The notes beneath the pieces are model-generated. The model was not told the origin of the DNA. It did not search any database and saw nothing but the letters and a program-made list of their open reading frames with translations. Shown piece by piece: positions 35,809 through 47,294 of a stretch of DNA of 64,000 bases. The first letter of the stretch is position 1; each line of letters starts with the position of its first letter. Both the position numbers and the translations under genes were made by a program. This stretch comes from Tissierellia bacterium (lineage in GTDB: Bacteria; Bacillota; Clostridia; Tissierellales; Peptoniphilaceae), in the NCBI GenBank assembly GCA_030532305.1, contig JAUNLJ010000008.1, forward strand, positions 1 through 64,000, written 5' to 3'.

Positions 35809-35934
35809 AGATAGGAAAGACCCTGGGGAAAGAAAAAATCTTTTAAATAAGAGAAAACCTTTTACCAGGGACCCACCTTAGGAAAAGGCAGCTTTAGTTT
35901 TCCTAGGATTTACAAACCATGGGAGGTGACCCCG

Positions 35935-36654
35935 GTGAAATATATTGCACGCTTTAGCTTGAAAGATCCCTTATTGCCATCAGACTATCGGCCTATTTTT
36001 GTTAGCTTTTTTAAAAAGGCCCTGTCTGACCATATGGAGGGATATTTTTATGAGGATTTTTATGGGGAAGGGGCCAAGAAAAAGGACCTCTGCTGGTCCC
36101 TTAGGTTGGGTCAGCCCAAGTTTGAAGGCCGGCAGATTAGGCTGGGCCAAAAAGACATGGACATGACCCTCAAGTTTCAGGGGCCTAAGGCAGCCAGCCT
36201 TTATTTTACGGCCCTCCTCAAGATGAAGGGGAAGGACTTTCCCATTGGCTTGGGCAACACCATGGTCCTTAAGTCTCTTCGTTTGGTCCCAGAAAAGGAC
36301 ATCCTGGGAGACGTGGCCCTCTTTAAGATCCTAAGCCCCCTCTGCCTAAGAAAGCACGATAGGACCACCAACAAGGATCGGTATCTTACTGTGGAGGAAG
36401 AAGATTTTGAAGTAGTCTTCAAGGAAAAGCTCAGGGAAGAGCGGCCGGACCTAGATCAGGAAATCCAAGACCTGGTCCTAGATTTTTCCAAGCTAAAGAA
36501 GATCGTGGTCCCAGCCTATAAGATCCCCATAGACTGTAGCCTGGGGACCTTCCTGGCCCAGGGAGACAAGGCCCTCCTTAACCATATCCAGCATGGCGGA
36601 CTGGGGAGCAGACGGGCCAGTGGCTTTGGTTTGGTTGAGAATATCTATATATAG
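35935..36654 (+). CDS. cas6: CRISPR-associated endoribonuclease Cas6
   Basis: About 239 residues. Cuts the pre-crRNA inside each repeat to leave an 8-base 5' handle. The C-terminal glycine-rich loop GGLGSRRASGFGLVE is the Cas6 hallmark. The N-terminus (KYIARFSLKDPLLPSDYRPIF) has the first ferredoxin-like fold with the LPSDYR turn seen in subtype I-B Cas6. Start choice: a GTG at 35926 overlaps GGGAGGTG, so the GTG at 35935 is the better initiator. It is first gene of the cas operon; the next start is 11 bases beyond its stop. Confidence 0.9.
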   Translation: MKYIARFSLKDPLLPSDYRPIFVSFFKKALSDHMEGYFYEDFYGEGAKKKDLCWSLRLGQPKFEGRQIRLGQKDMDMTLKFQGPKAASLYFTALLKMKGKDFPIGLGNTMVLKSLRLVPEKDILGDVALFKILSPLCLRKHDRTTNKDRYLTVEEEDFEVVFKEKLREERPDLDQEIQDLVLDFSKLKKIVVPAYKIPIDCSLGTFLAQGDKALLNHIQHGGLGSRRASGFGLVENIYI

Positions 36655-36665
36655 GAGGTGGTTCT

Positions 36666-38186
36666 TTGATACAAGAGGGTGAATTTATAAAAAAAGGGAT
36701 CCCCTATGATAGGAAGATCCTGCCTTCAGACTGGCGGTTTTCTGCCGCCCTGGTGGGCCTAGAACGCTACTTAAAGAAGATGGGCCGGCCCTATGCCTAT
36801 GACAGGGAGGCCCTCTACTATAATTATGAGGACGTCACCGACGACAGGGCCTATGCCCAGTATGTAGAAAAGCGGTATGAGGACATTCTGGACCATAGGA
36901 AGTTAGAAAAACTCTTGACTAAGGAAGACCTCAGCCAGGAGGAAAAAAAGGAGGCCCAGAGCCTCTTAAAAACTAAGTCGGGCATGAAAAAGTACCTGGG
37001 CCAGCTTAGCCTAGAGAACCCGGACCAGGTCCTAGAAACCATCGAGGACAAGAGGACCCCACTGACCCTAAACCTCTTTAAGTTTTCCCAAAGTGGCTAC
37101 CGGAAATTTGCCAACGAGAGCTTATTTTTAGGCAGCAAGGAAGACCTCCGGCGAAATAGCCGAGAAGACATCTGCCGGCTAAGGGGCTATTCGGAAGACA
37201 TGGGACGGAAGACCAATTCTTTAGGCTTTGCCTTTAAAAAGAGGGCCCGGGAGGTCCAAGACTGGGTGGAATTTGACTTTATTCCCTTTGCCTTTACACG
37301 AAGCCGGGAGGCCATCTTTCTTAACAACAATGCCAGCATTGAAAATCTGATTAAAAGCAACCGGCTTTTGGACCTGGAGTTAGAGGCCCAGGCCCAGGAG
37401 GCTAAGGAACAGAATAAGACGGCCCAGGACTTCCGGTCCCTGATCTTTTACCAGGTCCAGGAGGGGTCCATCTTCCTAAACTATGATGTGGAAGTCATCC
37501 TAAAATCCATGGAGAGGGACTTTTATGAAAGTCTCTTTGTAAGACAAGAGGCCGTTAGGATCTTTGAAGACCTGGGCCGGATAGATAGGGACAAGGGCTA
37601 TATCAAGTTGGCCCTTAAAAGAAGAATTAGAATCCGGGATAATGACTATATAAATATTATGGAAGAGGTCACCCAGGCCATCCTAGGCCTATGTGTCCTA
37701 GACCCCCTTATTGTCTACCTCTTAAGGGATGACATGGAAGAGAAGAAGGGCGACCAAAAAAAGGCAAGCAATGGTTTTGTCATCAGTCAACTGATTCGGA
37801 TTAACCGTCTTATTTACAACTACTTGTACCAGGAGGGAGAGGCCATGACGCCGTCAAAGAAAAGTTACTACACCAGACAGTTTATTAATGCCGGAGCATC
37901 TGCTGAGGCCGTTAAGGCCGTCTTTAGAAAGAGAGGGACCCTCCATAAGCTAGATAGCTATAGGGCCAAGCTTATTGGGGCCCTATCAGCCAGAGACACC
38001 CGCCGGGTCTATGATATTATGCTCCAGCTATCTTCCTATGCCCAGGTCCCCTTTGAATTTATGGACCTCCTTTATGAAGATTTTGACCAACATAGTAACC
38101 TGGTCTACCAGTTTACCAACCAGCTCAACGACTTTAGGAAAGTAGAAAACCCTGAAGAAAATACCAAGGAGGCCCACCATGAATAA
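36666..38186 (+). CDS. cas8b: Type I-B Cascade large subunit Cas8 (Cst1-like)
   Basis: 506 residues. Assigned chiefly by position, since it lies between cas6 and cas7 exactly where Cas8b1/Cst1 lies in Tneap-type I-B loci (cas6-cas8-cas7-cas5-cas3-cas4-cas1-cas2). N-terminus: ILPSDWRFSAALVGLERYL. The protein is highly charged and helical. The CxxC pairs common in Cst1 proteins are not seen, so the zinc site may be absent. Cas8 recognises the PAM and helps recruit Cas3. TTG start at 36666 with AGGAGG seven bases upstream. Overlaps cas7 by eight bases. Confidence 0.78.
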   Translation: MIQEGEFIKKGIPYDRKILPSDWRFSAALVGLERYLKKMGRPYAYDREALYYNYEDVTDDRAYAQYVEKRYEDILDHRKLEKLLTKEDLSQEEKKEAQSLLKTKSGMKKYLGQLSLENPDQVLETIEDKRTPLTLNLFKFSQSGYRKFANESLFLGSKEDLRRNSREDICRLRGYSEDMGRKTNSLGFAFKKRAREVQDWVEFDFIPFAFTRSREAIFLNNNASIENLIKSNRLLDLELEAQAQEAKEQNKTAQDFRSLIFYQVQEGSIFLNYDVEVILKSMERDFYESLFVRQEAVRIFEDLGRIDRDKGYIKLALKRRIRIRDNDYINIMEEVTQAILGLCVLDPLIVYLLRDDMEEKKGDQKKASNGFVISQLIRINRLIYNYLYQEGEAMTPSKKSYYTRQFINAGASAEAVKAVFRKRGTLHKLDSYRAKLIGALSARDTRRVYDIMLQLSSYAQVPFEFMDLLYEDFDQHSNLVYQFTNQLNDFRKVENPEENTKEAHHE

Positions 38187-39084
38187 AGCATTAACCCTAA
38201 CCATTATTGCCCGTATGACTGCCAACTATGGAGAAGGTCTAGGAAACATAGGCAGTGTCCAAAAGGTCTTTAAAAATGGCAAGGCCTATGCCATCCGGTC
38301 CCGGGAGAGCATAAAAAATGCCCTTATGGTCCAGTCTGGCCTCTATGACGACCTGGAGGTGGATGTGGGGAAGAACGTCACCCAAAAGACTGTAAATGAG
38401 GATAAAAACGCCAGCAATTCTCCCGCCCTAGAAGGGGGCTATATGAATACGGCCGACAAGAGTGAGGGGGGAACCACCAAGATCAGAAAGAGTTCCTTCT
38501 ACCTGACCGATGCCATTGACTTTGACCCCTTTATCAATGAAACCCGCTTCCACAACAACCTATTCTTGGCCCAAACCAGTGCCAAGCAGCAGGGGATCAA
38601 CCTTCAAGAGGGGGCCAAGGAAGCTGGCCTTATGCCCTACCAATATGAATATAGCAAGAGCCTAAAGGCCTACTCCATGACCATAGACTTAGACCGGATA
38701 GGGGTCGATGACAATTTCCATGACCAGGCAGATCCAAAAGAGCGGGCCAGACGGGTTCATGCCCTCTTAGACGGGGTGGCCAACCTGTCCCTAGTAGTTA
38801 GGGGAAACCTAGACAATGCCGAGCCCCTCTTTATCGTAGGAGGCCTGGGGGATAAGAAGACCCACTATTTTGAAAATGTCATTAGCCTAGAGGACCAAAA
38901 GCTAAAGATCAGCCAAGACCTAAAGGACAAGCTGGACAAGGGCTACCAAACAGGCCTTTTAAGGGGAGGGAACTTTGCCAACGAGGAGGCCATAGAAAAG
39001 GAACTTAGCCCCCTCAAGATGGACGACTTCTTTAAAAAACTAAAAGACGAGGTGACCGCCTACTATGAAGGTCTTGAGGATTAA
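38179..39084 (+). CDS. cas7: Type I-B CRISPR protein Cas7 (Cst2/DevR)
   Basis: 301 residues. Backbone subunit of Cascade that coats the crRNA spacer. The start NKALTLTIIARMTANYGEG and the following segments match the Cst2/DevR group, as does SLVVRGNLDNAEPLFIVGG near residues 197-215. Several copies assemble per complex. The ATG at 38179 lies inside the cas8 end, and its own last 20 bases contain the cas5 start, so cas8, cas7 and cas5 are tightly coupled. Confidence 0.9.
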   Translation: MNKALTLTIIARMTANYGEGLGNIGSVQKVFKNGKAYAIRSRESIKNALMVQSGLYDDLEVDVGKNVTQKTVNEDKNASNSPALEGGYMNTADKSEGGTTKIRKSSFYLTDAIDFDPFINETRFHNNLFLAQTSAKQQGINLQEGAKEAGLMPYQYEYSKSLKAYSMTIDLDRIGVDDNFHDQADPKERARRVHALLDGVANLSLVVRGNLDNAEPLFIVGGLGDKKTHYFENVISLEDQKLKISQDLKDKLDKGYQTGLLRGGNFANEEAIEKELSPLKMDDFFKKLKDEVTAYYEGLED

Positions 39085-40222
39085 GCTTAGACAGAGCCAG
39101 GCCTCCTTTGCCAAGGAAGAAACCACCACCAACCGGATGACCTACCCCCTCCCCCCCTATTCCACGGTGATAGGGGCCCTCCATGCTACCTGTGGCTACG
39201 AGACCTACCACCCCATGGACCTGTCCATTCAAGGTAAGTTTGGGTCCATGCAGAGGGAAATGTATGTGGGCCATGCCTTCCTAAATTCCACCCAAGACGA
39301 TAGGAACCTCCTGGTCTACCTCAAGGACCCTAATTATTTATCGGCGGGCCTTAGCCTGGTAGGCCAGGGCCTAAAGACCCAGGGGAATAGTTTCTTGAAA
39401 AACCAGACCGTAAGGATTGACAATGAGGCCCTCTACCAACACTACCTGGACCTAAATAAAAAGAAAAAGGCCCTAGAAGAAGAAAAAAAGGCCTTAAAGG
39501 TCCATGTGGATTCCCTAAAGGCCCATGAGAAGGCCTTAAAGGAAAAGCAGAAGAAAGTGGATAAGAAGTCCCAGGCCTTTGAGGACCTAAAAAAAGAAAT
39601 AAAGGACACCCAGCTCATCTATAAGACCCTAAATAAGGACTTTAAGGACAGGGAAATCCGGGAATACAAGGAGCCCTATTCCCACTTTAGGACCCTGGTC
39701 AAGGCCCCCAAATACCAGGAAGTCCTCTACGACCTGGACCTGGTCATCCATATCCGGGCCCAGGAAGAAACCCTAAAGGACATCCAGAAAAATATTAACA
39801 ACCTGGTCTGTCTGGGCCGGAGTGAAGACTTTATTGACCTGGTGGACATAGGCATGGTGGACCTGGTCCCCCTAAAGAAAACTACTGGTCTTTTGAATAA
39901 TTACAAGATCTATGTCAACCTAGACCGGATCAACCAAAATAGCCTAGAAGGCATGGATAAGGAGGAGGGACCTGTGGATAGGGCCTACTGCCCTCCAGAA
40001 GATGAGGCTGCCGAGGAAGATAAACCCTTTTTCTATAAGGAGGGCAACCAGAAACGCCAGGCCAAGGGGACCGTCTATTATGTCAATAAGGACTACCGGA
40101 TAGAAGGGGGCAAGCGGGTCTTTAACCGGATCCCCTGCCTCTATACCTCTGCCATAGGGGCCGATGAAGAGAGTGAAGGGGTCTATATGGATTCAGAGGG
40201 CTACCTAACAGACTTTAACTAA
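39065..40222 (+). CDS. cas5: Type I-B CRISPR protein Cas5 with a coiled-coil insertion
   Basis: 385 residues, longer than the roughly 220-260 usual for Cas5. The N-terminal fold is typical (MKVLRIKLRQSQASFAKEET, YPLPPYSTVIGALHATCGY). The conserved LGRSEDFIDLVD block near 250 confirms Cas5, which caps the 5' handle of the crRNA. Between them, residues about 121-195 are almost entirely Lys/Glu/Leu heptads (KKKKALEEEKKALK, EKALKEKQKKVDKK), a predicted coiled coil. A further acidic stretch (PPEDEAAEEDKP) occurs near 320. The insertion falls where Cas5 has its thumb. Overlaps cas7 by 20 bases. Confidence 0.88.
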   Translation: MKVLRIKLRQSQASFAKEETTTNRMTYPLPPYSTVIGALHATCGYETYHPMDLSIQGKFGSMQREMYVGHAFLNSTQDDRNLLVYLKDPNYLSAGLSLVGQGLKTQGNSFLKNQTVRIDNEALYQHYLDLNKKKKALEEEKKALKVHVDSLKAHEKALKEKQKKVDKKSQAFEDLKKEIKDTQLIYKTLNKDFKDREIREYKEPYSHFRTLVKAPKYQEVLYDLDLVIHIRAQEETLKDIQKNINNLVCLGRSEDFIDLVDIGMVDLVPLKKTTGLLNNYKIYVNLDRINQNSLEGMDKEEGPVDRAYCPPEDEAAEEDKPFFYKEGNQKRQAKGTVYYVNKDYRIEGGKRVFNRIPCLYTSAIGADEESEGVYMDSEGYLTDFN

Positions 40223-40232
40223 GGAGGAAACC

Positions 40233-42503
40233 ATGGAGACCCCACTAGCGGACTATTATAGCAAGCTTTTAGCCAAACCCCAGGAAAGCATCCAGGACCA
40301 CACCCAGAGGGTCCTGGAAAACTATGAAATTCTTAGGGACCTGGCCTATATCAAGGACCCAGACCTCCTAGACTGCCTTAGACTAGCCTGCTACTACCAC
40401 GACAGTGGGAAAATCAATCCCCATTTCCAAGACCGGCTAAAAAATGGAGGTCGCTTTAATGAAACCAGGGAGGTGGGCCACAATATCCTGTCTGCCCACT
40501 TGGTGGCCCTCTTTATAGAAGAAGAGACCCAGGAGAAAAAAGACCTGATCACCAATGCCATCCTAAACCACCACCACTACCGGGGCAACTATGACATCCT
40601 ATATGACCAGAGGGACCTGGTGGAAGAAAACCTAAGGACCATCAATGAGGACCTTCTGAAAATAGACCCGGACCGCTATGAACAAAAGGTCATCAAGGCC
40701 CTTAAAAGTAGGCGGCTGGGCCGGTTAAACCGGCTCCAAAGCAAGGGGACCTATATTATTTTAAAGGGCCTCTTAAACAAGTGCGACTATTCGGCCAGCG
40801 CCCACCTGCCCTGCGAAGTGGAGAATGACTTTTTAAAGGAGGCCTTGGAAGGCCTCCCCTACCAGTGGAATGATATGCAGACCTTCTGCCAAGACCACCA
40901 GGACAAGAACCTGATTATTCGAGCCTCCACCGGCCTAGGCAAGACCGAGGGGTCCCTCCTTTGGGCAGGCAACCGGAAGATCTTCTATGTCCTCCCCTTA
41001 AGAACCGCCCTAAATGCCATGTATAGCCGGATTAGGGACCTGGTCCCCCAGGATAGAGAGGACCGGGTGGGCCTTCTTCATGGAGAAAGCCTAGGGGTCT
41101 ACCTAAAAGAGGGCGCCCTCACCCAAGAGACAGCCCAGCTGGAAAATGAAAAGCTCGTTGGCTACTACAAGAGGACCAAAAACCTCTCCCTCCCTGTGAC
41201 TGTGGCCACCCCCGACCAGCTCTTTGACTTTGTCTTTAAGTATGAAGGCTACGAGATCAAGCCAGCCACCTTCTCCTATGCCAGCTTTATTATTGACGAG
41301 ATCCAGGCCTATAGCCCCGACATCCTGGCCTATACCCTAGAGGCCATTAAAAGGCTCCATAGGCTAGGCAGCCGCTTTGCCATCTTTACAGCCACCCTGG
41401 CCCCCTTTGTTAGGGACCTTCTAGTGGACGACCAGCTAGCCCAGTCTCTGGTGGAAGGAGATTACCTGTCCCCCCTAAAAAGACACCGGATACGGGTCCT
41501 AGAAGAGGCCATATCTGCTAAAAAGATCCTAGAGACCCTAAAAGACCAGCCAGGCCTAAGCTCAGGTCTGGTCATCTGCAACACCGTCAAGGGAGCCCAG
41601 GCCCTCTACCAAGACCTAAAGGAAGGCCTAGACCCAGAGGCCTATGACCTCCAGCTCCTTCACGCTAAGTTTATAGGCAAGGACCGGCAGAAAAAGGAAG
41701 AGAAAATCCTAGAGGATGGTCAAGCAGATAAAAAGAGGGAAAAAACCACCCTCTGGGTTACCACCCAAATTGTGGAAGCCAGCCTAGATATAGACTTTGA
41801 TATCCTCTTTACAGAACTATCAGAACTCCTAGGCCTCTTCCAAAGGCTAGGCCGCTGCCACAGGAAAAGGCCTGTTAGGGAAGGCTTCTTCAACGTCCAC
41901 ATCTTCACCAAGATAGAGGACAAGCTCCTGTCCAAGGACCTAGGCTTCATTGACCGGGGCCTCTACAATCTGAGCCGGGAGGCCTTAAGGGCCCAGGGAG
42001 ACGGCCTTATCACTGAAAAAGACAAGGCAGACCTGATCAAGGACTACCTGACCACGGAAAAACTAAGGGCCCAAGGAGAAAGTAACTTCCTAGACCTGTA
42101 TGAGAAAAAAATAGACTATATTCGAAGCCTGGGGATTGGCATCAAGGATAAGGCAGAGGTCCAAAGGGAATTTAGGAACATTATCTCCTTTAAGGCCATC
42201 CCTGCTGCCCTCTACTATCAAAACCCCCATATCCCTCCTCTTCTCCAAGAGATCCATAGGCTAGAGACCCAGATAAAAGAAGCCCGGACTAAAGAGACCA
42301 GCAAGGAAGACCTCCTAGCCCTGAGAAAAGACCTCTTCATGAAGAAAAACGACCTGGACCAATACACCCTAAGCCTAGAAGGCTATCGGAGGGGGAAAGA
42401 AAGCTTCTTTGTAGCCGGAGAAGAGATCTACATCACCCCCTATGCCTACACCGAAGAACTGGGCCTAGGCTGGGACCGGGAGGAAGAGGGACTTATGCTA
42501 TGA
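40233..42503 (+). CDS. cas3: CRISPR-associated helicase/nuclease Cas3 (HD + SF2 helicase)
   Basis: 756 residues. Unwinds and degrades target DNA after Cascade binding. N-terminal HD nuclease: His 23 (QDHTQRV), His 56-Asp 57 (CYYHDSGK) and NHHHYRG. Helicase: Walker A ASTGLGKTE (Lys 237), DEIQ box 355-358, TATLAP motif III, VTTQIVEASLDIDFD (motif V) and LFQRLGRCHRK (motif VI). All look intact, so interference should work. A Lys/Glu helix near 690 precedes the C-terminal domain. The last four bases (ATGA) include the start of the truncated cas4. Confidence 0.95.
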   Translation: METPLADYYSKLLAKPQESIQDHTQRVLENYEILRDLAYIKDPDLLDCLRLACYYHDSGKINPHFQDRLKNGGRFNETREVGHNILSAHLVALFIEEETQEKKDLITNAILNHHHYRGNYDILYDQRDLVEENLRTINEDLLKIDPDRYEQKVIKALKSRRLGRLNRLQSKGTYIILKGLLNKCDYSASAHLPCEVENDFLKEALEGLPYQWNDMQTFCQDHQDKNLIIRASTGLGKTEGSLLWAGNRKIFYVLPLRTALNAMYSRIRDLVPQDREDRVGLLHGESLGVYLKEGALTQETAQLENEKLVGYYKRTKNLSLPVTVATPDQLFDFVFKYEGYEIKPATFSYASFIIDEIQAYSPDILAYTLEAIKRLHRLGSRFAIFTATLAPFVRDLLVDDQLAQSLVEGDYLSPLKRHRIRVLEEAISAKKILETLKDQPGLSSGLVICNTVKGAQALYQDLKEGLDPEAYDLQLLHAKFIGKDRQKKEEKILEDGQADKKREKTTLWVTTQIVEASLDIDFDILFTELSELLGLFQRLGRCHRKRPVREGFFNVHIFTKIEDKLLSKDLGFIDRGLYNLSREALRAQGDGLITEKDKADLIKDYLTTEKLRAQGESNFLDLYEKKIDYIRSLGIGIKDKAEVQREFRNIISFKAIPAALYYQNPHIPPLLQEIHRLETQIKEARTKETSKEDLLALRKDLFMKKNDLDQYTLSLEGYRRGKESFFVAGEEIYITPYAYTEELGLGWDREEEGLML

Positions 42504-42604
42504 AAGAGCCTAAGATAAGTGGCCTTCACATCTATTACTACTATGTCTGCCCTAGAAAACTCTGGTTTTATGTCCCAGGTCCAATCCCTAAGCCGGGAAA
42601 TTGA
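42500..42604 (+). pseudogene. cas4: Remnant of cas4 (N-terminal 23-24 codons only)
   Basis: The ATG at 42500 overlaps the cas3 stop (ATGA), the normal coupling of cas4 to cas3. Translation gives MKEPK then ISGLHIYYYYVCPRKLWFY, the conserved Cas4 start including the first Cys of its iron-sulfur site. After about 42571 the similarity stops, and a TGA follows at 42602-42604, giving only 34 codons. The RecB-like nuclease domain and the C-terminal cysteines are gone. The same DNA continues in another frame as the C-terminal part of cas1, so an internal deletion has joined the two genes. Confidence 0.85.
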
Positions 42605-43163
42605 AGAGGCCCAGACCATTCCGGCTCTTATGGGGATAGAGGGGAACATTCGAAAGACCTACTACCAGTCCTGGGAGATTATCATAGATAGGGACATAGA
42701 CTTTAAAAAACGGGTTAAACGTCCACCCGATAATTTGATTAACACCCTAATTTCCTATATCAATAGCCTGGTTTATACCACCACCCTATCAGAGATTTAT
42801 AAGACCCAACTAGATCCTACCCTTAGTTTCTTACATGAGCCAGGGACCAGCCGTTATTCTTTAAGTTTGGACCTGTCAGAAATTGTAAAACCCCTCATCG
42901 CTGATAGGCTTATCTTTAGCCTCCTAAATAAGAATCAGATCCAAGAAAAGCACTTTACCCAGGGCCTAAACTTCCTCCACCTAGAAGAAAAGGGGTCAAA
43001 GATTATTCTAGCCGAATACCATAAGTACCTAAAAAGGACCCTCCAAGATAAGCAACTCCAAAGGAAGGTTTCCTATCGCTATCTCATTCGTTTGGAAGCC
43101 TATAAGCTGATTAAGCATTTTTTAGGGGAAAAAGAATATCAACCCTTTGTTATGGAGTGGTAA
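42519..43163 (+). pseudogene. cas1: Truncated cas1 (C-terminal domain only)
   Basis: The frame from about 42573 encodes the helical catalytic half of Cas1: SREIEEAQTIPALMGIEGN (metal Glu), KRPPDNLINTLISYINSLVY, FLHEPGTSRYSLSLDLSE (metal His and Glu) and SYRYLIRLEAYKLIKHFLG at the end. About 197 residues remain of the usual roughly 330. The N-terminal beta-domain needed for dimerisation is missing, and the residues before 42573 are cas4 sequence read out of frame. Catalytic residues survive, but a working integrase is very unlikely. The stop is followed directly by cas2. Confidence 0.85.
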
Positions 43164-43164
43164 T

Positions 43165-43440
43165 ATGTATATAATACTAGTGTATGACATAGCTCTTGAT
43201 GACAATGGACAAAAACGATGGCGCCGTGTCTTTAAATTATGTAAGCAGTATCTTACCCATGTCCAAAATTCAGTTTTTGAAGGGGAAATTTTAGAGTCTG
43301 ACTTGTTTATCCTGGAGAAAAAGATAAAAAAAGAAATCAAAGAGTCTATAGACTCAGTTCTTATCTTTAAAAGTCGCCATGAACGCTGGCTGGAAAAGGA
43401 TGTATTAGGCCTTTATCGGGGTCCAGATATCTTTATATAG
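43165..43440 (+). CDS. cas2: CRISPR-associated protein Cas2
   Basis: 91 residues, complete. MYIILVYDIALDD (Asp 8) begins the ferredoxin fold, followed by RRVFKLCKQYLTHVQNSVFEGEI and the short C-terminal strand. Cas2 bridges two Cas1 dimers during spacer integration and has no known interference role in type I systems. An upstream in-frame TTG/ATG region from 43147 lies inside the cas1 remnant; the ATG at 43165 matches the family start. It survives although its partner cas1 is truncated, which suggests the deletion is recent. Confidence 0.92.
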   Translation: MYIILVYDIALDDNGQKRWRRVFKLCKQYLTHVQNSVFEGEILESDLFILEKKIKKEIKESIDSVLIFKSRHERWLEKDVLGLYRGPDIFI

Positions 43441-43620: not shown

Positions 43621-44508
43621 ATTTGAAACGAACCATACTGGAATCTAAAGAAAAGAGCCTTATTTTTTTGTGTATGTAGAATCTTTATTTGAAACGAACC
43701 ATACTGGAATCTAAAGGGTAAAACAAACAAAAAGGGCCTAGTAAAAAGCTAAGATTTGAAACGAACCATACTGGAATCTAAAGATAGGACCTATCAAAAA
43801 TAAAAATGCTTTAAAAGGATTTGAAACGAACCATACTGGAATCTAAAGAGACTTACACAGAAGAAGAATTTAAAAAGAAGCTTCAATTTGAAACGAACCA
43901 TACTGGAATCTAAAGTTTTTTGAAGTTTGATTGATAATATCTTGTAAATGACATTTGAAACGAACCATACTGGAATCTAAAGGAGTTTCGACCCCCGTAA
44001 AATGTATAAAAGCTTCTATTTGAAACGAACCATACTGGAATCTAAAGTTGGTCACTACAGCACCGACACGAATTGAAGGAGAATTTGAAACGAACCATAC
44101 TGGAATCTAAAGTGGTCTCAAATTGGATCTTTACGCTTGGCATTCCCATTTGAAACGAACCATACTGGAATCTAAAGGTCCTTCCTAATAAGTGGGATTT
44201 CTACATGAGACGAATTTGAAACGAACCATACTGGAATCTAAAGTAATTTAACGTCATATATTTTACTTTTTGTCATTTAATTTGAAACGAACCATACTGG
44301 AATCTAAAGGGAAAGGGACTTTATCTTAGAGCTGGACGAGGACGATTTGAAACGAACCATACTGGAATCTAAAGTTCCTTTAGCTCGTTGACCTTGTCAC
44401 GCCTGCGTTCATTTGAAACGAACCATACTGGAATCTAAAGATAACTCGGGGCGCTTAGCTCGGCCGTGTTCTCTAGAGATTTGAAACGAACCATACTAAA
44501 ATCCAATA
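43621..44508 (+). CRISPR. Type I-B CRISPR array, 14 repeats and 13 spacers
   Basis: The 30-base repeat begins ATTTGAAACGAACC and ends GGAATCTAAAG. Repeats start at 43621, 43687, 43754, 43819, 43886, 43953, 44018, 44083, 44148, 44214, 44280, 44345, 44411 and 44479. The first 13 are identical; the last is degenerate over its 3' half (GG to AA and other changes) and marks the trailer. Spacers are 35-38 bases. Transcription is therefore left to right, and Cas6 cleavage would give a handle of about AUCUAAAG, comparable to the AUGUAAAU-type handles of clostridial I-B arrays. No spacer was recognised by eye as matching this window. Confidence 0.97.
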
Positions 44509-45579: not shown

Positions 45580-47250
45580 TTAGCGGTTATAGACTGTGGG
45601 GACCATCCCGTTGCCGGGGTTGGCTTCGGTGTTGTAGCGGACAAAGTATTGGTTAAAATTCCGGCCCATCCTCCGGTTCATGTCGTAGGCACCTTCAATC
45701 ATGAGGCCATTGGCCAAGGTGGCGTGGATACAGATGGGGCGGCCATGGTTATGACCCATAAAGAGGGCCACATGGTTAAAGCCTAGGTAGAAATTGGGGC
45801 TGTAGTTAAAGATCAGGTCCCCAGGCCAGGCTTGGGCAAAGTTGCGAGGGTAGCGGAAGCCGCCAAACTTGTGGGCGTCTTGGTATTGGGCCCGGACCAT
45901 TTCGTAGCCCCGGTGTTTTCTCATTTGCACATCGTTGGGGCCAGGAATATGGATGCCAAATTCCTTGTAGGTGGAGTAGGTGGTCCCACAGCAGTAGACC
46001 CCTTGGCCGTTTCTTAGGTCGGTGCCATACCACTTAAAGGGAAGACCTTCAAAGGAGGCAGTAAAGTTGACCATCTCTTGGCCCCGGAAGCGGAGCTCTT
46101 GGTTCTTGCCCTCTAGCCAACGGTTGCTGATTTCTTCTGCAGGGGGATAGTACCAGTAGACCTTGGTTCCCCGCCGGCCACCTGGCCGGTAACCTTCCTT
46201 GACGGCCCCCTGGCTATCAAACCAGTAGACCCCTTCTCCAGTGGAGAAGACCCCATTTTTATACATCCGGTGGTCTAGGGGGGAGAAGTAGTGGAGCTTG
46301 TTTCCTACCTGCTTCCAGCCCCGGGCTAGGCCCTTTTCTCCGTCTATATAATAGATCTTGTGGTCCTTTTTGTAGTAGTCCCCGTCTAAAAGACCCTCCA
46401 TATTTAAAAGATAGAGGTTGTCCTGGGTTTCTATAAGGCCCCCAGGGAATTGGGACCGGCGAAGGGCCTGGCCTGTGGCTGGGTCAAGGGCCTGGAAGCC
46501 CCCTTGGACCGCTTGGATTTCGATGGTGGTCACTTGGGGGGTGGTGGGAATTTCATTAAAGGCCTTGACCAAAAGGGTCATGGCCTCAGCCCGGGTGAGT
46601 TGCCCCTGGGGCCTAAAACTTTGGTCCTCGTAACCGGTGATGATGGCTTGGCCAGTTAGGTCCTTAACAGAAGAGACCAGGTGGGCCTGGACCTCATCCC
46701 TATCATAGAAGGCGAGGTTGGCAGGATCATAGTCTAGCTCGGCCTTTTCTTCCATGACTTCCTTAACCAGGTCAATGGCCTCTTCCTGGCTTAGGTCTTC
46801 CCGGTTTAGGGCCCGGTCAAGAACCATCCGGTAGTCTAAAAGACCGGCAGCTTCTTCCCGGCTAATGGGGTCTCCAGGAAGGATTTGGTCCCCCTTAAAG
46901 GCAAAGGGCAAGAGGCCCAGGCCTTCAGCTTGGCGGAAATTAGCTTCAGCCCAAGGAAGACTGGCAATGTCTTCGTATTGGGAGTCCATGGTTTGGTCTA
47001 AGACCAGGGAGTCGTCTAAACTTTGGCAGATCAAGGCCACAAACTCGGCCCGGGTCATGGTGGCTTGGGGACGGACTTGGCCATCCTCGTAGCCTCGGAT
47101 CCAGCCCAGCTCGATGCCCCGGGCCATGTTGAGTTCAGCCCAGTGGCCCTGGATGTCGCCATAGTTTTTAGCCTCTGCCGGGCTAATCAAAAGAAAGACT
47201 AGGGCTAGAGCCAGGGTTAAAACTCTAGGGTATGTAGATTTTTTTGACAA
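45580..47250 (-). CDS. SLH-anchored surface protein with wall-binding repeats and NlpC/P60-like domain
   Basis: About 556 residues. Signal peptide (VLTLALALVFLLISPAEA). Three SLH domains lie at about 30-240 (GDIQGHWAELNMARGIELG...GYEDGQVRPQATMTRAEF; GDQILPGDPISREEAAGL; GYEDQSFRPQGQLTRAEA). A stretch of aromatic wall-binding-like repeats follows (GLARGWKQVGNKLHYF, NGVFSTGEGVYWFDSQG). The C-terminal NlpC/P60-like peptidase domain has the likely nucleophile in GVYCCGTTYSTYKEFG and a His in GFNHVALFMGH. Probable peptidoglycan hydrolase or amidase at the cell surface. A GTG at 47259 lies within the AGAGGTGG ribosome-binding site; the TTG at 47250 is better placed. Confidence 0.88.
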   Translation of the reverse strand: MSKKSTYPRVLTLALALVFLLISPAEAKNYGDIQGHWAELNMARGIELGWIRGYEDGQVRPQATMTRAEFVALICQSLDDSLVLDQTMDSQYEDIASLPWAEANFRQAEGLGLLPFAFKGDQILPGDPISREEAAGLLDYRMVLDRALNREDLSQEEAIDLVKEVMEEKAELDYDPANLAFYDRDEVQAHLVSSVKDLTGQAIITGYEDQSFRPQGQLTRAEAMTLLVKAFNEIPTTPQVTTIEIQAVQGGFQALDPATGQALRRSQFPGGLIETQDNLYLLNMEGLLDGDYYKKDHKIYYIDGEKGLARGWKQVGNKLHYFSPLDHRMYKNGVFSTGEGVYWFDSQGAVKEGYRPGGRRGTKVYWYYPPAEEISNRWLEGKNQELRFRGQEMVNFTASFEGLPFKWYGTDLRNGQGVYCCGTTYSTYKEFGIHIPGPNDVQMRKHRGYEMVRAQYQDAHKFGGFRYPRNFAQAWPGDLIFNYSPNFYLGFNHVALFMGHNHGRPICIHATLANGLMIEGAYDMNRRMGRNFNQYFVRYNTEANPGNGMVPTVYNR

Positions 47251-47294
47251 GATAACCACCTCTTTTTAAAATATTAGTAAATGACTATAGAAAC

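Follow-up and report, generated by a model that had tools for sequence, protein, structure and literature searches.

The window analyzed here, a 64,000-nucleotide stretch of Tissierellia bacterium contig JAUNLJ010000008.1, contains a type I-B CRISPR-Cas operon that runs on the forward strand in the order cas6, cas8 (Csx8 type), cas7, cas5, cas3, a cas4 remnant, a cas1 remnant, cas2 and the CRISPR array, with the subtype being assigned from PADLOC and NCBIfam profile matches. The upstream genes are cas6 (35926–36654; PADLOC Cas6b, E 2.7e-69, and NCBIfam TIGR01877), cas8 of the Csx8/Cas8b type (36666–38186; TIGR02670, E 6.3e-91, and PF09657), cas7 of the Cst2/DevR family (38179–39084; TIGR02585, E 2.8e-59), a long cas5 (39065–40222; PADLOC Cas5b model PDLC02094, E 2.9e-125 over residues 1–379) and cas3, encoding an HD nuclease and helicase (40233–42503; PADLOC Cas3b, E 4e-212). 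Downstream of the two remnants lies cas2 (43165–43440; PF09827, E 2.6e-22, and PADLOC Cas2b, E 3.7e-34), so that the Cas2 component of the Cas1-Cas2-Cas4 adaptation module is present. All six of these genes have unbroken frames and match their family profiles, in agreement with a preliminary description of this DNA that considered them intact. In alignments, Cas3 agreed with its relatives at every invariant site and Cas7 deviated at two, in line with intact relatives.

The 385-residue Cas5 was observed to have a long charged middle region, at approximately residues 95–200, that is probably a coiled coil and that also gave weak matches to coiled-coil ATPases. This long-middle Cas5 is a known variant, as the nearest relatives share it and the PADLOC model is of equal length. 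The cas2 gene begins one base past the stop codon of the cas1 remnant, and a promoter-like sequence, TTGTTA-17-TATAAT, at 43147–43175 spans the end of the remnant and the start of cas2, although this is a consensus match only. Further downstream, on the minus strand, an open reading frame at 45580–47259 is predicted to encode an exported protein of 559 residues. Its translation, judged by eye, begins with apparent SLH-type repeats, also has choline-binding-like repeats and ends in a part that resembles NlpC/P60.

The CRISPR array (43621–44506, forward strand) consists of 13 identical 30-nt repeats and a degenerate 14th, as had been reported earlier, separated by 13 spacers of 35–38 nt. The degenerate repeat (44477–44506) is at the end of the array away from cas2, which suggests that the leader is on the cas2 side. 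None of the spacers had a significant match in the genome outside the array, and searches of phage records returned matches at chance level only (E about 3). Six of the 13 spacers were scanned against IMG/VR as 22-mers, and one exact match resulted, for spacer 4. This match was rejected as a target and attributed to chance, because on extension only 26 of 37 positions agreed. Neither the CRISPR repeat nor the cas4–cas1 junction described below was found in IMG/VR.

Between cas3 and cas2 the operon departs from the usual arrangement. The cas4 ATG, at 42500, overlaps the cas3 stop codon as ATGA, an overlap noted previously with a start coordinate (42490) that was 10 bases early. The cas4 frame (42500–42604, forward strand) has only 34 codons and reads MKEPKISGLHIYYYYVCPRKLWFYVPGPIPKPGN before a stop codon at 42602–42604. 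Residues 1 to ~25 matched Cas4b profiles (PADLOC E 2.8e-7; Pfam PF01930 exactly at its cut-off), and comparison with relatives revealed that approximately the first 23–25 residues are Cas4, while the remaining tail is cas1 DNA read out of frame. The last codons that are clearly of cas4 origin are those for Leu-Trp-Phe (CTC TGG TTT). As about 25 of some 170 residues are kept, only approximately one seventh of cas4 remains; about six-sevenths, including the nuclease core, is gone. Cas4 function is thus probably lost, with the locus encoding just a 34-residue peptide that lacks the nuclease core.

The sequence that follows encodes the C-terminal 197 residues of a Cas1b protein (42570–43163, forward strand; stop codon at 43161–43163). 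It matched PF01867 from position 132/133 to 282 of 283 and TIGR03641, the NCBIfam Cas1b model, over positions 130–324 of 324, with E-values of 3e-53 or better, so chance similarity is not an issue. The cas4 and cas1 remnants are in different frames, their starts being 70 nucleotides apart, which confirms the change of frame reported earlier. Upstream, the cas1 frame stays open as far as a GTG at 42519, for a total of 214 codons, and its three possible starts are preceded by poor context.

A full-length Cas1, comprising an N-terminal beta domain and a helical domain, is not encoded here. In the structure modeled for an intact Cas1 from a relative (locus L022; 333 aa, mean pLDDT 84.6), the beta domain is formed by residues 6–79 and the helical domain begins at residue 88, with helices at 88–99, 101–127 and 134–149. 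The remnant begins at residue 137 of this protein. Judged from the model, what has been lost from Cas1 is the entire beta domain together with helices 88–99 and 101–127 of the helical domain, a loss of two-fifths of the protein rather than the N-terminal third proposed in the preliminary description. The lost part also accounts for 14 columns that are invariant in the Cas1 alignment. The residues E24, H89 and D101 or E104 (remnant numbering), the metal ligands expected for a Cas1 protein, are all invariant in the alignment and present in the remnant; a Glu and a His had been noted as retained earlier. A structure prediction for the remnant alone kept the remaining helices (mean pLDDT 81.2); its input alignment consisted of intact relatives, so it does not demonstrate autonomous folding of the fragment.

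Comparison with cas4–cas1 of relatives, a step suggested in the preliminary description, revealed the same gene order and placed the missing sequence at a junction at 42563–42572 (forward strand). The breakpoint lies somewhere within about TTTTATG, and the Met codon at 42570, common to most relatives, is the first codon that is clearly cas1. In eight intact relatives the two points that adjoin here are separated by 832–843 bp, close to the roughly 0.8 kb estimated earlier, this size being judged against relatives. The same eight have cas4 open frames of 163–174 codons followed directly by cas1 (329–339 codons). Both parent genes of the junction are therefore identified, and the proposal that a deletion had fused the start of cas4 to the C-terminal part of cas1 is upheld. 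When the surroundings of the two sites matching the deletion ends were compared in seven relatives, the shared words were only 6–8 bp long, and no long direct repeat was seen. Recombination between long repeats, as well as assembly collapse at long repeats, is therefore not suggested, and we rejected long direct repeats as the cause of either.

The genome assembly (1.52 Mb in 34 contigs, 97.5% complete) was searched for genes that might replace those lost. Searches of this assembly found no second cas1, the truncated gene described here being the only one, and cas4 was not found elsewhere in it. Full-length cas4 or cas1 elsewhere, which the preliminary description had named as evidence that would count against it, is thus absent from the assembly, as is a second array with the same repeat. 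A cas1 gene could possibly be located in the unassembled 2–3% or on a missing plasmid.

Overall, these data support the deletion, its size, the identity of both parent genes and the absence of other cas1 or cas4 genes from the assembly. We propose that a single internal deletion of about 0.83–0.84 kb fused cas4 at codon ~23 with cas1 at codon ~137, with a change of frame. The deletion probably occurred by illegitimate or short-microhomology joining, as no long direct repeat is present at the matching sites in relatives. Any Cas1 fragment produced would be missing two helices at the start of the helical domain as well as the beta domain used for dimerization. Cas1 and casposases dimerize through their N-terminal beta domains, which pair with each other (PMC6977970). 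Without these parts the fragment would be unable to assemble a Cas1-Cas2 integrase, and acquisition of further spacers would cease. Even if the chances of an error in the assembly and of a fragment that still functions are taken into account, the absence of the Cas1 dimerization domain and of Cas4 makes it likely that spacer acquisition is dead. Because the genes for crRNA processing by Cas6 and for interference by Cas8-Cas7-Cas5 and Cas3 are intact, both processes could continue from the 13 existing spacers. The interference competence stated in the preliminary description is plausible in that it is consistent with the intact genes, and no tested spacer gave a convincing target. Taken as a whole, one deletion with loss of acquisition is an explanation in which we have high confidence, and continued interference is a plausible part of it.

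The condition of the cas1 remnant bears on whether it has been retained for some purpose. It contains no stop codon and no frameshift, and its identity to Cas1 from four outgroups averaged 0.622, compared to 0.617–0.639 for five intact ingroup proteins, so that faster decay was not detected by this low-power test. Of the sites at which 14 relatives are invariant, four carry a substitution in the remnant, F106V and W196E among them. We did not accept these as a sign of decay, since intact proteins have 0–5 such substitutions and one intact relative has five; they are suggestive only. The absence of excess divergence fits either a recent deletion or a fragment that may still be under constraint. 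That the fragment is expressed and kept, either with reduced activity alongside Cas2, in another DNA transaction or for translational coupling to cas2, would be compatible with this, with an open frame of 197–214 codons that has the expected metal ligands and with the start of cas2 one base after the cas1 stop. However, the fragment has lost two helices and the beta domain through which Cas1 dimerizes, the start sites have a poor context and the four substitutions are at otherwise invariant positions, while a recent deletion accounts more simply for the missing decay. We therefore consider a retained fragment very unlikely, and the narrower case, in which a fragment devoid of the dimerization domain is kept and functions beside Cas2 in acquisition or another DNA transaction, extremely unlikely.

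The lesion was read from one draft assembly, in 34 contigs, of one genome, and a remnant that has not decayed is also what would be seen if the real genome had intact cas4 and cas1 genes and the assembly had skipped about 0.84 kb. Such an error is improbable, as the 6–8 bp words shared in the seven relatives leave no long repeat to collapse and the junction is well inside a contig of >64 kb. Acquisition might also still proceed with Cas1 and Cas4 provided in trans, a plasmid being one conceivable source. Outsourced adaptation of this kind has been proposed for type I-B systems of haloarchaeal proviruses (PMC12596717), and a replicon could be missing from an assembly that is 97.5% complete, but neither a further cas1 or cas4 nor a second array with this repeat is present in the assembly, and we regard supply in trans as extremely unlikely. 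A single deletion that ended acquisition is thus the explanation we prefer.

Complete type I-B operons in relatives (e.g., L022, L023 and L024) share the gene order and the long Cas5b with this locus, and their Cas1 proteins are 70–72% identical to the part retained here (64–72% across intact relatives). These operons keep a cas4 of about 165–175 codons and a cas1 of about 330, whereas the locus described here is shorter by about 0.83–0.84 kb. An independent lesion is present in a related operon, that of Eubacterium multiforme DSM 20694 (L070), in which the type I-B cas1b has an in-frame TGA (L070:6049–6051) just past the codon for the catalytic Glu; that lesion is a nonsense codon, and cas4 is intact. 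In another relative (G053), one cas1 copy (L010) has an apparent frameshift near its 3' end, with two stops inside the match, and another copy is open.

Type I systems that lack adaptation genes have been described before, and the present locus is a further clear case of this known kind. The haloarchaeal provirus type I-B systems lack cas1, cas2 and cas4, and some of their hosts have no second system (PMC12596717). Like the system described here, they combine interference genes and an array with no complete adaptation module, but their adaptation genes are wholly absent and they are located on proviruses, whereas here remnants and cas2 persist in an ordinary operon. Type I-E loci of Streptomycetaceae that appear interference-competent also lack cas1-cas2 (PMC8730458). 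As here, the array and interference genes are kept and adaptation genes are gone; the loci differ in subtype, in their association with tnsB and tnsC and in not having arisen by partial deletion. Deletion of cas1 and cas2 also marks the Beijing lineage of Mycobacterium tuberculosis (RD207; PMC5310062), another natural deletion in which adaptation genes were lost and the CRISPR locus was retained in part, although that system is type III-A and both genes were wholly lost.

The Tissierellia locus adds one case to this known pattern and leaves the general view unchanged. It clearly illustrates how a single deletion has probably frozen a CRISPR system, and it is useful for comparing the arrays of strains with and without the deletion.
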